From positions 1-25,365 of IMG/VR virus record IMGVR_UViG_3300009184_000195: a stretch of 25,365 nt of DNA; one strand, written 5' to 3'. The position numbers and the translations under genes were made by a program. The notes beneath the pieces are model-generated. The model saw only the letters and a program-made list of their open reading frames with translations. It was not told where the DNA came from and did no database searches. The DNA comes from a virus. Positions 4,322-14,450 of the stretch are shown here, piece after piece. Position 1 is the first letter of the stretch. Each line of letters starts with the position of its first letter.

Positions 4322-4585
4322 ATGCACTGCTTAAACTGCGACCGTCTGCTCACCGATTACGAAGCGACACGTAAACATGCCATTACGTTTAAGTTCTTGG
4401 ACTTATGTAAGGTTTGCTTCGATGACGTTAAGACAATCATTCCGACCATTGACAATCGATCATTGATGACTGAGCAAGACCTCGATGTAGACGATCAAGA
4501 TGACGATCTGGACACTATGCCTTCCCTAGAAGACATCGATGCACTATATAGCTATATAGACTCTGATGATGTCTATGAAGACTAA
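4322..4585 (+). CDS. Small zinc-ribbon-like protein with acidic tail
   Basis: The 87-residue product starts MHCLNCDRLLTDYEATRKH. Cysteines at 3, 6, 29 and 32 form two CxxC pairs (CLNC and CKVC), a likely zinc ribbon. The second half is extremely acidic (DVDDQDDDLDTM), ending SDDVYED. Small CxxC/CxxC proteins with a motif like LTDxEATRK are common in tailed phages, usually without known function. The acidic tail could mimic nucleic acid or bind a basic protein; that is inference. The ribosome site is weak. The gene is followed by the ATTAAAG array. Confidence 0.7.
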   Translation: MHCLNCDRLLTDYEATRKHAITFKFLDLCKVCFDDVKTIIPTIDNRSLMTEQDLDVDDQDDDLDTMPSLEDIDALYSYIDSDDVYED

Positions 4586-4588
4586 GAA

Positions 4589-4667
4589 CATTAAAGTCAT
4601 TAAAGTTACATTAAAGTAAATACTACTTTATTGTTTACCTATTAAAGATTCATTAAAGTCATTAAAG
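4589..4667 (+). repeat. Six ATTAAAG repeats with mirror-symmetric spacing
   Basis: CATTAAAG (first base C or T) starts at 4589, 4598, 4609, 4640, 4651 and 4660. The steps are 9, 11, 31, 11 and 9, a spacing that reads the same in both directions although all copies point the same way. CATTAAAGTCATTAAAG is identical at 4589-4605 and 4651-4667. The AT-rich centre holds an inverted repeat, TAAAGTA (4612-4618) and TACTTTA (4624-4630). The whole lies in the only sizeable gap before the replication genes and looks like an initiator- or activator-binding array. Confidence 0.8.
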
Positions 4668-4682
4668 ACTAAAGGGGGTAAC

Positions 4683-4862
4683 ATGGGAAAGATGAAGGAA
4701 TTGATGATGATGGAACAAGAACATGATGATGATGATTTGTCTATGTGTGAAGAAGCACATTACGTTCATACGCTCAATGATGTCGTTGAGTTGATGATTG
4801 TCTATGGCTTTGACACAGTTATGGATGATGTCTTGATTAAGTTGGGGGATAAAATCAAATGA
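4683..4862 (+). CDS. 59-residue acidic protein of unknown function
   Basis: AAAGGGGG six bases upstream gives a strong start. The product begins MGKMKELMMMEQEHDDDD and ends in a helical part (NDVVELMIVYGFDTVMDDVL). The run of His-Asp4 near residue 14 is unusual. It is the first gene after the ATTAAAG array and may be expressed with the replication genes. No family is recognised. Confidence 0.55.
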   Translation: MGKMKELMMMEQEHDDDDLSMCEEAHYVHTLNDVVELMIVYGFDTVMDDVLIKLGDKIK

Positions 4863-5079: not shown

Positions 5080-5329
5080 GGGTTCAGCTAGGCGTAAGGA
5101 AGACGTCAGTAAGATCAATGAGAATTGGGATCGTATTTTCAACAAACAGAAGGGAAACGATATGGAACTAGACGATGACGAATGTTTTGGTATTGAAGAT
5201 GATGATGAGTACGATGAGGAGTGCTCTTGGTGTCATGGGTGTGGTGAAGGTGACTACGATGGGGCTTCATGTCGTAACTGTCACGGTACAGGCATAGAGC
5301 CTAGGGATGATGACTATGATGACATCTAA
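5060..5329 (+). CDS. Small acidic protein with DnaJ-type zinc motif
   Basis: The 89-residue product opens MAHEAGKGSARRKEDV, a start common in small phage proteins encoded near replication genes. Two cysteine pairs, CSWCHGCGEG and CRNCHGTG, resemble the CxxCxGxG repeats of the DnaJ zinc finger, set between very acidic stretches (ELDDDEC, DDDEYDEE, RDDDYDDI). GGAG lies eight bases before the ATG. The gene overlaps the primase-helicase start by 23 bases, so the two are translationally coupled. A role in zinc-dependent protein or nucleic-acid contact is likely but unproven. Confidence 0.65.
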   Translation: MAHEAGKGSARRKEDVSKINENWDRIFNKQKGNDMELDDDECFGIEDDDEYDEECSWCHGCGEGDYDGASCRNCHGTGIEPRDDDYDDI

Positions 5330-6929
5330 TACCTTGAAGGTAGCCTCTAAGTTCATCAAGCACGTAGAGTGCGCTAAGTGCGGGTCTAGCGATGCTAATT
5401 CCCTCTACGATGATGACCACCAGTACTGCTTCGGCTGTAACGCCTATCTCGCAGGCGAAGGAGATAGCATTACTAGTCCCCGCAGCTCAACAACAAAGGT
5501 ATTTACAATGAAGACAACAGGGGAAGTCAAGGCTATCGTGGATCGAGGTATTTCACGGGAGACCTGCGAGTACTTCGGTGTCACACAGGAGACAGGGAGG
5601 CACTACTACCCTTATTTTGACGAAACAGGCGCTAAAGTAGCTGAAAAGATTCGATCTGTAGAGAACAAGACATTCTCTATTGCTGGAAACTTTCAGAAAG
5701 CGGGACTTTTCGGGCAGTCCTTGTTCCAAAAAGAGGGTAAGTACATCACCATCGTTGAAGGTGAGCTGGACGCATTGGCTTCGTATCAAATGACAGGCAG
5801 CAAGTGGCCTACTGTAAGCATCCGTAATGGGGCTTCAGCGGCTGTTAAAGACTGCAAGGCTCAGTATGAGTACCTAGATAGCTTTGAGACTATCGTTATC
5901 TGTTTCGATGCTGATGAGGTGGGTCAGAAGGCAGCTAAGGAAGTTGCTGAGCTGTTCGGAAACAAGGTTAAGATTGTCAAACATTTAAAGGAGTGCAAAG
6001 ATGCCTGTGATTACCTCTCTAACGGACGAGGAGCTGAATACGTTAACCAGTGGTGGAGAGCTGAGAGTTATGTACCCGATGGGATCATCCAAGCCTCAAC
6101 ACTTTGGGACAGCGTATCTACACCTGAACCCGCAGCAGAAGCCTTCTACCCCTTCGATGGACTCAACGAGCTTTTATATGGCCTCAGATCAAGTGAACTT
6201 ATTACAGTTACAGCTGGATCAGGCCTTGGCAAGAGTCAATTCCTTAGAGAAATCCTCTATCGCGTACTCGAAACTACAAAGTGGAATGTTGGTGGGATGT
6301 TCTTGGAGGAGTCAGTGCGAAAAACCGCAAGGTCAATTATGTCCTTACACGCAAACAAAAAACTTCATTTGCCAGACACCCCTGTTACAGAGCGAGAATT
6401 AAAGGAGGCCTTCGATGCTACTCTTAGCACTAACCGTGTTTTCCTGTTTGATCATTTTGGTAGCCTTGCCATTGATAATGTGCTCAACAGAATCCGTTAT
6501 ATGGCGCGTGCTTGCGACTGCCGTGTGGTTTTTCTCGACCATATTTCTCTCGTTGTTTCTGGTATGGATGGGAATGATGAGCGCAAGTCTATTGATGTAC
6601 TGATGACTCGTCTGCGTACATTGGTACAAGAGACAGGTATTACCTTGATCTGCGTATCGCACTTGAAACGACCTAACACCGACAAGGGACATGAAGATGG
6701 TTCAGCGGTATCCTTATCTCAGCTACGTGGCTCTGGTGCTATCGCTCAGCTGTCTGACGCTGTTATCACTCTTGAGCGTAACTCCATGAGCAAGGATGCC
6801 GATGAGCGTCACACGACCAAGGTAGCAGTGGCTAAAAACCGTTTCAACGGACTCACAGGGCCAGCTTGCTCACTGAAGTACGATATGAACACAGGGCGCA
6901 TGATTGAGCTGAAAGGGGTAGCAGGATAA
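5307..6929 (+). CDS. T7 gp4-like primase-helicase
   Basis: This bifunctional replisome protein would make RNA primers and unwind DNA as a hexameric ring. The 540 residues (T7 gp4: 566) contain: a zinc-binding domain with C22-x2-C25 and C41-x2-C44 (CAKCGSSDANSLY, YCFGC); a TOPRIM-like primase core with EGELDALA (151-158) and CFDADEVG (199-206); then a RecA-like helicase with Walker A GSGLGKS (304-310), catalytic LEES (333-336), Walker B VVFLDH (407-412), ICVSHLKRP (448-456) and LRGSGAIAQLSD (473-484). The order and wording match T7 gp4. The exact first codon is uncertain, because ATGs at 5307, 5310, 5316 and 5319 are all possible; AGGG at 5303-5306 best suits 5316. An internal start exists at 5508. 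Confidence 0.93.
   Translation: MMTMMTSNTLKVASKFIKHVECAKCGSSDANSLYDDDHQYCFGCNAYLAGEGDSITSPRSSTTKVFTMKTTGEVKAIVDRGISRETCEYFGVTQETGRHYYPYFDETGAKVAEKIRSVENKTFSIAGNFQKAGLFGQSLFQKEGKYITIVEGELDALASYQMTGSKWPTVSIRNGASAAVKDCKAQYEYLDSFETIVICFDADEVGQKAAKEVAELFGNKVKIVKHLKECKDACDYLSNGRGAEYVNQWWRAESYVPDGIIQASTLWDSVSTPEPAAEAFYPFDGLNELLYGLRSSELITVTAGSGLGKSQFLREILYRVLETTKWNVGGMFLEESVRKTARSIMSLHANKKLHLPDTPVTERELKEAFDATLSTNRVFLFDHFGSLAIDNVLNRIRYMARACDCRVVFLDHISLVVSGMDGNDERKSIDVLMTRLRTLVQETGITLICVSHLKRPNTDKGHEDGSAVSLSQLRGSGAIAQLSDAVITLERNSMSKDADERHTTKVAVAKNRFNGLTGPACSLKYDMNTGRMIELKGVAG
5495..5510 (+). promoter_or_regulatory. Likely internal start for a zinc-less helicase form
   Basis: AAAGG (5495-5499) lies eight bases before an in-frame ATG (5508, residue 68, MKTTGEVKAI) just after the zinc domain. 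T7 gene 4 uses an internal start at residue 64 to make the shorter helicase 4B. The same position and a proper ribosome site suggest the same two-form strategy here. Confidence 0.6.
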
Positions 6930-7252: not shown

Positions 7253-8986
7253 ATGAAACGTATTGCTATCGACATCGAGACAAACATGGCGCATGATGTC
7301 ATTCATCTCGCTGTTACGCAGGACATTGACACAGGAGAGGTGAAAGTATGGAAAGCTCCAACAGGCCTTTGGGAGTACTTAAAGGACGCTACGTTGATCG
7401 CAGCACACAACGGGATAGGATTCGACTTCCCGATTCTGAACAAGGTGTGGAAGACGAAGATTGGATTGAGGCAAGCGTACGATACATTGATAGTGTCAAG
7501 GTTGCTAGAGCCAACGAGGGACGGGGGCCACAGCCTAGACGCATGGGGAAAAACGCTAGGGGTGGCAAAGCTGGACTACAAGGCAACGTGGAAGTGGATG
7601 GTGAACCGTGATGAGGCATACGCTGGGGAATGCTTTGATGCGCCTGTTGGTGTTCTTCTTGAGCATTATTGCGTACGCGATGTTAGCGTGTTACGGACTC
7701 TATTTACTCGCTTGGAAACTACTTTGTCAGCTCAGAAGTTCTCTAAGGAAAGTGTGGAACTAGAACATCAAGTTGCTTCCATAATCAACAAGCAAGAAAA
7801 GAACGGCTTTAAGCTAGACACAATTCACGCTACTTGCCTGCTTGCTGAACTCAAGGGGAAGATGAGCGCCATCAATGACAGGATGCAGGAAGAGTATCCT
7901 CCGTACGAGGTTGAACGTATCTCTGAGAAGACAGGGAAGATTCTCAAGCCTGAGCTTGTGGTGTTTAATCCTGCCTCTAGACAGCAGATAGCTGAGAAGC
8001 TTATTGCCCTAGGTTGGAAGCCCAAGAAGTTCACTGAGCCTACAGCTAATCACCCTAAAGGGCAGGTTATCGTTGATGAGAGCACACTTGCTGGTCTAAA
8101 GTACCCTCTAGCTCAATTCGTAGCTGAGTACATGATGCTAGGTAAGCGCATAGCTCAGATTGAATCGTGGTTGGAGGTCGTAGGTAAGGACGGCAGGGTA
8201 CACGGTAGAATCATCACCAACGGGGCTGTGACGGGTCGTATGACTCACATGAAGCCTAACATGGCACAGATACCTAACTCAGGCTCACCGTATGGCCCTG
8301 AATGTCGTCAGTGCTGGACAGTCGAGGAAGGTAACGTCCTAGTAGGATGTGACGCTAGTGGTTTAGAGCTGCGTATGTTGGCTCATTACATGGAGGATGA
8401 AACGTATGTCAAAACAGTCTGTGAGGGATCGTCTAAGAACGGCACGGATGTCCACACGGTTAATCAAAAAGCAGCCGGTCTACAAACACGTGACCAAGCG
8501 AAGACGTTCATCTACGCATTCCTCTACGGGGCTGGCCCTGCGAAGATTGGATCGATTGTCGGTGGTAGTAGTACCGCTGGAAAAGCACTCATTGATTCCT
8601 TTCTTGAAGGGACTCCCGCGCTCAAGCGTTTACGTGATACGGTATCCTTGGATGCGTGCAAGGGCTTTGTATTCGGGCTTGATGGTCGTAAGATATGGGT
8701 TCGTAGTGAACATGCGGCACTCAATAGCTTACTACAGGGCGCTGGCGCGATTGTCATGAAGAAAGCTTTAGTACTATTCGATAAAAAGGTATTAGAGAAC
8801 AATTGGAGTGTAAAATTGGTAGCTAATGTACACGATGAGATTCAGTTTGAGTGCTCACCTGATATCGCTGAGGCAGCGGGTAAGGCTTGTGTACAGGCGA
8901 TCAGAGATGCTGGTGTAGCTTTTGAGCTAAAATGCCCTCTCGATGGGGAATACAAGATTGGTCGTAATTGGCGTGAAACCCACTAA
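7253..8986 (+). CDS. T7-type family A DNA polymerase with 3'-5' exonuclease
   Basis: This 577-residue protein is the replicative polymerase. The proofreading domain shows Exo I DIET (D7, E9), Exo II AHNGIGFDF (51-59, D58) and Exo III YCVRD (139-143). The polymerase domain shows motif A VGCDASGLELR (364-374, D367), motif B RDQAKTFIYAFLYGAG (413-428; R413, K417, Y421) and motif C HDE (527-529). The end DGEYKIGRNW matches the family's usual close. T7 gp5 is 704 residues. The interval from Exo III Asp to motif A Asp is 224 here against 301 in T7, a loss close to the 76-residue thioredoxin-binding insertion. The ribosome site is poor; the preceding stop is five bases upstream, so coupling is likely. 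Confidence 0.95.
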   Translation: MKRIAIDIETNMAHDVIHLAVTQDIDTGEVKVWKAPTGLWEYLKDATLIAAHNGIGFDFPILNKVWKTKIGLRQAYDTLIVSRLLEPTRDGGHSLDAWGKTLGVAKLDYKATWKWMVNRDEAYAGECFDAPVGVLLEHYCVRDVSVLRTLFTRLETTLSAQKFSKESVELEHQVASIINKQEKNGFKLDTIHATCLLAELKGKMSAINDRMQEEYPPYEVERISEKTGKILKPELVVFNPASRQQIAEKLIALGWKPKKFTEPTANHPKGQVIVDESTLAGLKYPLAQFVAEYMMLGKRIAQIESWLEVVGKDGRVHGRIITNGAVTGRMTHMKPNMAQIPNSGSPYGPECRQCWTVEEGNVLVGCDASGLELRMLAHYMEDETYVKTVCEGSSKNGTDVHTVNQKAAGLQTRDQAKTFIYAFLYGAGPAKIGSIVGGSSTAGKALIDSFLEGTPALKRLRDTVSLDACKGFVFGLDGRKIWVRSEHAALNSLLQGAGAIVMKKALVLFDKKVLENNWSVKLVANVHDEIQFECSPDIAEAAGKACVQAIRDAGVAFELKCPLDGEYKIGRNWRETH

Positions 8987-12540: not shown

Positions 12541-14450
12541 CAAAAACAACAACTGAAATGACCCCGTACATGACCTACATCGCCAAAAGCCGTTACTCAC
12601 GGTATCTGGACGATAAAGGACGCCGTGAGCACTGGCCTGAGACTGTTAAGCGCTACCTTGACTTCATGCAAGGCCACTTGGAGAAGAACCATAACTACGT
12701 GATCCCTGCGTCACTGTACATCCGACTGTACGACAACATCGTAGGCTTGAATGTGATGCCTTCCATGCGCTCCATCATGACCTCAGGTGAGGCGCTTACC
12801 CGTCAAAACGTAGCTGGTTACAACTGTTCGTACATGCCTATTGATGACCCTAAGGCCTTCGATGAGGCTATGTACATTCTCTTGTGTGGCACAGGTGTGG
12901 GTTTCTCCGTGGAGCAGAAGTATGTCAACCGTTTACCTGAGATTCCTGAGAAGCTGTATGAGTCTAATACTGTGGTTCACGTTAAGGACTCCAAAGAAGG
13001 CTGGGCTAAGGCACTACGACAAGTGTTGGCCCTCCTATGGGCTGGAGAAGTACCAAAATGGGACGTATCTACTGTGCGACCAGCAGGTACTCGACTCAAG
13101 ACGTTTGGTGGACGAGCCTCAGGCCCTGAGCCTTTGGTTGACCTTTTCAAATATGTTGTCTCCAAATTCAAAGGTGCAGCGGGACGAAAACTTTCAACTT
13201 TGGAAGCTCACGATATCCTCTGCAAAATTGGCGAAGTCGTTGTTGTCGGTGGAGTGCGTCGATCGGCTATGATCTCTCTGTCTGACTTGGGTGATGATCG
13301 TATGGCTAAGGCTAAGGCTGGAGCTTGGTGGGATGGTAACGGTCAACGTGCATTGGCTAACAACTCAGCAGTGTACGATGTCAAGCCTGACGTAGGCCAG
13401 TTTATGCGTGAATGGAGCAACATTTATGAGAGTCACTCAGGTGAGCGTGGCATTTTTAACCGATACGCTTCGGAGATTCAAGCGTCTAAGAATGGTCGCC
13501 GTGTACTCGATAAAGAGTGGGGCACTAACCCTTGTTCTGAGATTATTCTCCGCCCTTACCAATTCTGCAACCTCAGCTCAGTTATTGTTCGTTCGGGGGA
13601 TACACTGGAGTCTCTCAAAGAAAAAGTCACTCTTGCGACAATCTTGGGAACCTTCCAATCGACAATGACAAACTTCCCATACTTGCGTAAGGTATGGCAG
13701 ACTAACACTGAGGAAGAGCGTTTGTTGGGTGTCTCTATGACAGGTATTTTGGACAATCAGTTGCTCAATAATGCCTACGATAAGGAACTCCCTGCACGTT
13801 TAGAGGAGCTGAAGAATGTTGCTGTGGACACTAATAAGCATCTTGCTGCTGAGCTTGGTATCAATGCTTCTGCTGCGATCACCTGTGTTAAGCCGGAGGG
13901 GACGGTTAGCCAGCTTACTGGTACTGCTAGTGGCATCCATCCTCAACACAGTGCTTATTTCATTCGCCGTGTACGATCTGACGCTAAAGACCCTATCACT
14001 GCTTTCTTGAAGGAGTCTGGATTCCCATCAGAGCCTTGTGTCATGAAGCCTGACTCAACAACTATCTTTTCATTCCCGATGAAGACACCAGAAGGTGCTC
14101 GTTTGCGTGAGGACTTGACAGCTATTGAACACTTGGACTTGTGGTTGGTATTCCAGCGCCACTGGTGTGAGCATAAGCCTTCAGTGACTATCTCGGTCAA
14201 TGAAAATGAGTGGCCTAAGGTAGGAGCGTGGACATGGGAGAATTTTGATGAGATTACTGGAGTTTCGTATCTGCCGATGGATGGTGGAACTTACCGACAA
14301 GCCCCATATGAGTCCATTGATCAAGAGACTTATGAGAAACTGGTATCTGAAATGCCTACATCAATTGATTGGGAAGGGATGGTAGAGAAGACTGACAATG
14401 TGGAAGGCGCTCAAATGCTTGCTTGTACCGCCGGTGCTTGTGAAATTTAA
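12537..14450 (+). CDS. nrdJ: Class II (adenosylcobalamin-dependent) ribonucleotide reductase
   Basis: This enzyme would reduce ribonucleotides to deoxyribonucleotides for phage DNA synthesis, using vitamin B12 coenzyme instead of oxygen or a partner subunit. The 637 residues resemble the monomeric Lactobacillus leichmannii enzyme (739). The radical-site block TNPCSEIILRPYQFCNLSS places N331, C333 (thiyl), E335 and C344 at the same spacing as N406, C408, E410 and C419. C97 in GYNCSYM is the partner of C344. The C-terminus ends CTAGACEI, with the CxxxxC pair (C630, C635) that re-reduces the active site. The glycyl-radical signature of class III and any small-subunit gene are absent. The ATG overlaps the previous stop. 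No intein is visible. Confidence 0.93.
   Translation: MTKTTTEMTPYMTYIAKSRYSRYLDDKGRREHWPETVKRYLDFMQGHLEKNHNYVIPASLYIRLYDNIVGLNVMPSMRSIMTSGEALTRQNVAGYNCSYMPIDDPKAFDEAMYILLCGTGVGFSVEQKYVNRLPEIPEKLYESNTVVHVKDSKEGWAKALRQVLALLWAGEVPKWDVSTVRPAGTRLKTFGGRASGPEPLVDLFKYVVSKFKGAAGRKLSTLEAHDILCKIGEVVVVGGVRRSAMISLSDLGDDRMAKAKAGAWWDGNGQRALANNSAVYDVKPDVGQFMREWSNIYESHSGERGIFNRYASEIQASKNGRRVLDKEWGTNPCSEIILRPYQFCNLSSVIVRSGDTLESLKEKVTLATILGTFQSTMTNFPYLRKVWQTNTEEERLLGVSMTGILDNQLLNNAYDKELPARLEELKNVAVDTNKHLAAELGINASAAITCVKPEGTVSQLTGTASGIHPQHSAYFIRRVRSDAKDPITAFLKESGFPSEPCVMKPDSTTIFSFPMKTPEGARLREDLTAIEHLDLWLVFQRHWCEHKPSVTISVNENEWPKVGAWTWENFDEITGVSYLPMDGGTYRQAPYESIDQETYEKLVSEMPTSIDWEGMVEKTDNVEGAQMLACTAGACEI

Follow-up and report, generated by a model that had tools for sequence, protein, structure and literature searches.

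In phage T7, phi1.1 is the primary origin of replication, and phiOL, phi6.5 and phiOR are secondary origins. A transcript primes T7 replication. For phages that have a T7-type replication module and lack the RNA polymerase, we know of no account of how DNA synthesis starts. PMC12839067, with reference to Saito et al. 1980, describes the T7 origin as containing a cluster rich in A/T.

Two further systems are close to the locus described here. Iteron origins, such as lambda ori and those of iteron plasmids, combine phased direct repeats with an adjoining AT-rich region. Activator-dependent middle promoters of the T4 MotA type carry short boxes before replication genes. The literature searched contained no account of the present element, nor of its boxes in T7-type origins.

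The intergenic element and its surroundings

The window, i.e., the whole stretch of 25,365 bp analyzed here, is an IMG/VR virus record and represents a fragment. The element is the non-coding gap at 4586-4682 (+ strand) between a zinc-ribbon ORF and the next ORF, and homologous gaps are present in relatives. No other 80-bp segment of the window is as AT-rich as the one inside this gap (81% AT vs 55% overall). Hence, the window has an AT-rich intergenic segment before the early replication genes, as is typical of a T7-type primary origin.

Repeats: The original prediction of six same-direction repeats is exact to the nucleotide when the repeat is read as the 8-mer (C/T)ATTAAAG, with starts at 4589, 4598, 4609, 4640, 4651, and 4660 (ATTAAAG itself at 4590, 4599, 4610, 4641, 4652, and 4661). 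All six boxes are on the + strand. Box 1 (4589-4596), box 2 (4598-4605), box 3 (4609-4616), box 5 (4651-4658), and box 6 (4660-4667) read CATTAAAG, and box 4 (4640-4647) reads TATTAAAG. The box-to-box distances indeed form the mirror series 9-11-31-11-9, and the 17-bp block CATTAAAGTCATTAAAG is, as had been noted, identical on both flanks (4589-4605 and 4651-4667). The rest of the 25-kb window has just three more ATTAAAG. As any 7-mer occurs at least six times in only ~0.4% of first-order Markov sequences modelled on the gap itself, a chance origin of the repeats is unlikely, in agreement with the earlier view that they are too ordered for chance.

Core and dyad: Box 3 is part of the composite core CATTAAAG-TAAATAC (4609-4623, + strand), for which a pattern count gave a single occurrence in the window. 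An inverted repeat had been proposed for the center at 4612-4630. It is present, but these limits are slightly too narrow, as the dyad spans 4608-4634 with arms at 4608-4618 and 4624-4634 that are 91% complementary and fold into a hairpin as single-stranded DNA. A ribosome-binding-like GGGGG (4674-4678, + strand) lies before the ATG at 4683.

Flanking genes: The conserved left neighbor (4322-4585, + strand) encodes a CxxC...CxxC protein with an acidic tail (zinc-ribbon), and a small ORF (4683-4862, + strand) is the conserved right neighbor in the close group of relatives. The first of the replication genes encodes a T7-type primase-helicase (5307-6929, + strand) and starts 0.6 kb downstream of the gap, so the expected location just before the replication genes is borne out. 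Next come a DNA polymerase ORF (7253-8986; the name is based on the sequence), an SSB-like ORF, an exonuclease, and an endonuclease I. The zinc-ribbon protein gave no significant match in the PDB, and its predicted structure is poor (pLDDT 58). Distant homologues of this protein adjoin the primase gene in the Methylophilales phages MEP401 and MEP402.

The phage: By DNA comparison, the window has no near relatives among cultured phages. The closest primase in a cultured phage is that of Pelagibacter phage HTVC115P (~48% identical), in which the gap ahead of the SSB and primase genes is different in appearance. Terminal overlaps of 58-127 bp in several near-full-length related contigs are consistent with complete circular assemblies of ~36-39 kb. 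The site CCWGG is nearly missing, with no copy in the window and 5 copies across eleven sequences vs ~444 expected, which suggests a restriction system of the host. GGWCC is absent or nearly absent in the window and seven relatives and has 15-20 copies in contigs G004, G007, and G011, as if these had met another host barrier.

Conservation, phasing, and exchange of the element

Related contigs were gathered by searching with the primase-helicase and then with the zinc-ribbon protein. The homologous gap was taken from 201 loci, which gave 125 distinct sequences. A short and AT-rich non-coding gap follows the zinc-ribbon gene in more than 120 distinct relatives, an adjacency that is partly built in because many of the compared loci were found through the zinc-ribbon gene itself. 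In most relatives, the element ranks among the highest AT peaks. The exact mirror series occurs once among the 125 distinct gaps, namely in this phage, and mirror symmetry was therefore rejected as a functional feature. The nearest relative (L054) has the spacing 9-11-31-12-9, and the number of boxes ranges from 0 to 6 across relatives, most of which have 0-3. In the refutation test named with the original prediction, the comparison of the same gap in relatives, repeat number and spacing vary, but the box, the phasing, the core, and the place persist. The conserved feature is the element defined by these four properties and not the mirror spacing. Two CtrA-type TTAA-N7-TTAA sites are found in the window; the spacing across relatives is, however, 9-12, and this assignment was rejected.

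Clustering at ~78% identity resulted in 37 versions, of which 36 were used for motif and spacing tests (L054, for which the wrong gap had been taken, was left out). In these 36 versions, which share descent to some degree so that p-values are optimistic, TTAAAG was found 60 times vs 3.8 expected (~16-fold over chance) and CTTTAAAG 24 times vs 0.3 expected. Fourteen versions contain CATAGAAG or its complement (0.1 expected), and 12 contain AATACACT (0.7 expected). The orientation of ATTAAAG is strongly biased, with 32 forward and 6 reverse copies. In most contigs, the composite core, an 8-bp box with T(T)AAATAC immediately after it, occurs once, on the + strand and inside the element. Exceptions are G002 and G008, which have none, and a few contigs in which a looser pattern matches elsewhere.

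The inter-box distances cluster at 9-12, 20-21, 30-32, 41-42, 52-53, and 62-63. The resultant for 10.5-bp phasing is R = 0.46 in the dissimilar set vs at most 0.40 in random placements (0 of 2000 match). Such phasing is a mark of double-stranded DNA bound by protein. The single-strand fold z-score averages -2.17 over all 37 versions and -2.11 over the 25 versions of at most 100 nt, compared with -0.80 for the remaining intergenic tiles; AT-rich tiles taken separately give -0.99. Dyads in the elements are stronger than chance.

The box is also found away from the element. In contig G014 (loci L109/L353), four ATTAAAG in perfect 11-bp tandem form a second box array ~3 kb upstream of the element. 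In contig G002 (locus L008), two CTTTAAT face two ATTAAAG in a large dyad ~3.6 kb upstream of the element, a further use of the box.

In the close group (primase >80% identical), the element has two unrelated forms. In the box-array form, TAAATACTACTTTATTGTT or a related core is surrounded by ATTAAAG repeats. The hairpin form has TAAATACACTATTTA followed by CTACTTA-loop-TAAGTAG, mostly with just one or two boxes, and box arrays are thus not universal. For 24 box-array and 28 hairpin loci, 17 changes of form were counted on the primase tree and 15 on the zinc-ribbon tree vs 17.4 in shuffled data. As both counts are near the shuffled value, phylogenetic inheritance of the form was rejected and the forms appear to move freely. 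No protein cluster convincingly tracked the form (best p ~0.01 among 49-70 clusters, with unequal locus coverage), and a dedicated gene for each form was rejected, as no cluster was associated after allowing for the number tested. In addition, L006 and L053 have a common zinc-ribbon 3' end, yet their elements are of different forms. The lack of tree signal, the lack of a tracking cluster, and this mismatch fit a frequent swapping of the element as a unit. The data suggest that both forms are served by the same machinery.

Comparison with T7-group origins

The 80-bp segments of T7 with the highest AT content fall, apart from one near 14289, at phiOL, phi6.5, phi1.1, and phiOR. At 0.11 per 100 bp, TTAAAG/CTTTAA is a rare sequence in this phage, and it is most concentrated in the primary-origin segment and at phiOL. 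The annotated rep_origin of T3 (5682-5758) contains three CTTTAAG (p ~0.01 vs shuffles). In phiYeO3-12 (rep_origin 5995-6136), BA14, and K11, three boxes per 100 bp are found at the corresponding place. The boxes in BA14 and K11 are direct repeats ~11-13 bp apart, and the last copy adjoins the ribosome-binding site, as it does in the window's relatives. CTTTAAG is also found near ribosome-binding sites in T7 leaders, which may account for the box at this position and counts against the origin reading.

Scored by box clusters, a feature derived here and not a published criterion, the window has six boxes, and T7, T3, phiYeO3-12, BA14, and K11 have three each. Four whole T7-group genomes contain ten segments with at least three boxes, two of which are not at origins. 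K1F and SP6 have no box cluster within the interval tested. Both observations count against the origin reading. Within the window and each box-array contig, no segment exceeds the element in box density, although some equal it. We know of no examination of the role of the TTAAAG/CTTTAA box in the T7 origin.

The element therefore resembles the primary origin of the T7 group (T7 phi1.1A/B, T3, and phiYeO3-12) in being an AT-rich segment before the early replication genes and in carrying TTAAAG/CTTTAA boxes. It differs in that it has more boxes and two interchangeable forms, that initiation would occur in a group without a detected phage RNA polymerase gene, and that T7-type promoters are hence missing. 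The single-subunit RNA polymerase family PF00940 gave no match in 25 related records, and the T7 positive control was clear. A T7-like RNA polymerase promoter was rejected for this reason. As the upstream promoters for the phage polymerase define the type and were not found, the element is not classed as a T7-type origin.

Proposed origin function and alternative explanations

We consider the element to be most likely the protein-binding and strand-opening part of a phage replication origin, with a probability of roughly 55% for origin activity. It has a conserved place, a high AT content, phased boxes, a unique core, exchangeable forms, and a likeness to T7-group origins; protein binding, strand opening, and the start of replication are what we infer from these properties. 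The boxes would be the assembly site for a small DNA-binding protein, encoded by either the phage or its host, the AT-rich dyad region would melt, and the T7-type primase-helicase and the DNA polymerase of the phage would start at the element. As the group gave no match to a T7-type RNA polymerase, the first primer would be made either by the phage primase or by host RNA polymerase, as a transcript that runs through the site. GC skew was dropped as origin evidence. The minimum of the cumulative skew lies 1.5-2.5 kb upstream of the element, and the fourfold-site skew has no flip at the element; in T7, GC skew likewise gives no switch at the known origin and is thus non-discriminating.

The original prediction was a replication origin or a middle promoter. 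A DNA element of the protein-bound type before the replication genes is supported by the phased boxes, the conserved location, and the core that is unique in most contigs, but the mirror spacing behind the claim is not conserved. Of the two options, the origin is better supported, since TTAAAG/CTTTAA clusters mark T7-group origins and sigma70 scores are not above shuffles. A small early protein had been suggested as the ligand; the zinc-ribbon protein is a candidate because its gene adjoins the element, but many of the loci were collected through this gene, and no gene tracks the element form.

The main rival is an operator-promoter of the replication operon, in which an activator on the phased boxes would recruit host RNA polymerase to a middle promoter of poor consensus. 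The boxes are directional, and their biased orientation (32 vs 6) would also suit a promoter; the small number of boxes in the hairpin forms counts against an origin, as does the lack of an initiator gene among the ten window proteins scanned. The element is at the head of the replication genes with boxes just upstream of the ribosome-binding site, and the box-TAAATAC geometry is fixed. Some distant relatives have promoter-like sites near the element, either TTGACA-N17-TACCCT at the gap start (L342 and L362) or, at twelve loci, a sigma54-like site on either strand within 100 bp of the gap start. However, the best sigma70 -35/-10 scores inside the 36 elements equal those of shuffles (mean z -0.02), and a sigma70 promoter within the element was rejected. 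Unlike T4 MotA-type promoters, the element has no -10/-35 above chance, and no activator was identified or found to track the element form. The architecture is also more variable than expected for a promoter of a single polymerase. Hence, we regard an operator-promoter as possible but doubtful. The element could also be both, an origin and a promoter, as is the case in T7.

Other control signals were noticed upstream. In the window, a sigma54-like promoter, TTGGCACGCTATGTGC (1530-1545, + strand), heads rightward genes. Many relatives have similar sites on either strand ~2-3 kb upstream of the element (~0.07 expected per genome); the use of sigma54 by a phage would, to our knowledge, be unusual. 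A 32-bp leader (CAACTCACCAAGTATCGGAGCACA...) at 1635-1666 is duplicated at 94% at 1984-2015, each copy before a rightward ORF. Short TGCACCA repeats lie in the divergent control region (1384-1421), and in relatives TGCATTATTGCACC-type repeats are located beside the leftward sigma54-like site.

An iteron-type origin or copy-control site, recognized by the phage's own initiator in the manner of lambda or iteron plasmids, would account for the short direct repeats, their one-turn spacing, and the AT-rich region next to them. The boxes here are, however, 7-8 bp long and vary from 0 to 6 copies, no initiator candidate was recognized among ten window proteins scanned, and no gene tracks the forms, which makes this explanation improbable.

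Even less probable is a leader that acts as RNA and regulates how the downstream mRNA is translated or how stable it is. In its favor, the ribosome-binding site directly adjoins the last box, and the hairpin forms would fold in RNA, with one compensatory arm change from CTACTTA/TAAGTAG to CTACATA/TATGTAG. The 10.5-bp phasing points instead to double-stranded DNA, and CATAGAAG and its reverse complement interchange ahead of the core. No match was found in Rfam, and a known RNA family was rejected on this basis. Finally, an ordinary AT-rich spacer with repeats grown by slippage would explain the varying repeat number and the seemingly duplicated 17-bp block, but it is highly improbable because the box, its phasing, and the single core recur in versions that differ greatly, down to relatives with primases ~69% identical.

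For the preferred reading as an origin, a more specific model can be put forward tentatively. The element may be a T7-like origin that needs no phage RNA polymerase and in which opening is nucleated by TTAAAG boxes on one face of the helix. This box would also mark the T7, T3, BA14, and K11 origins, where it would have gone unnoticed, and the element would be exchanged as a cassette between the unrelated box-array and hairpin forms. For a large group of environmental phages, the element provides a concrete short candidate origin site, together with a motif common to the element and the T7 origin that can be tested.
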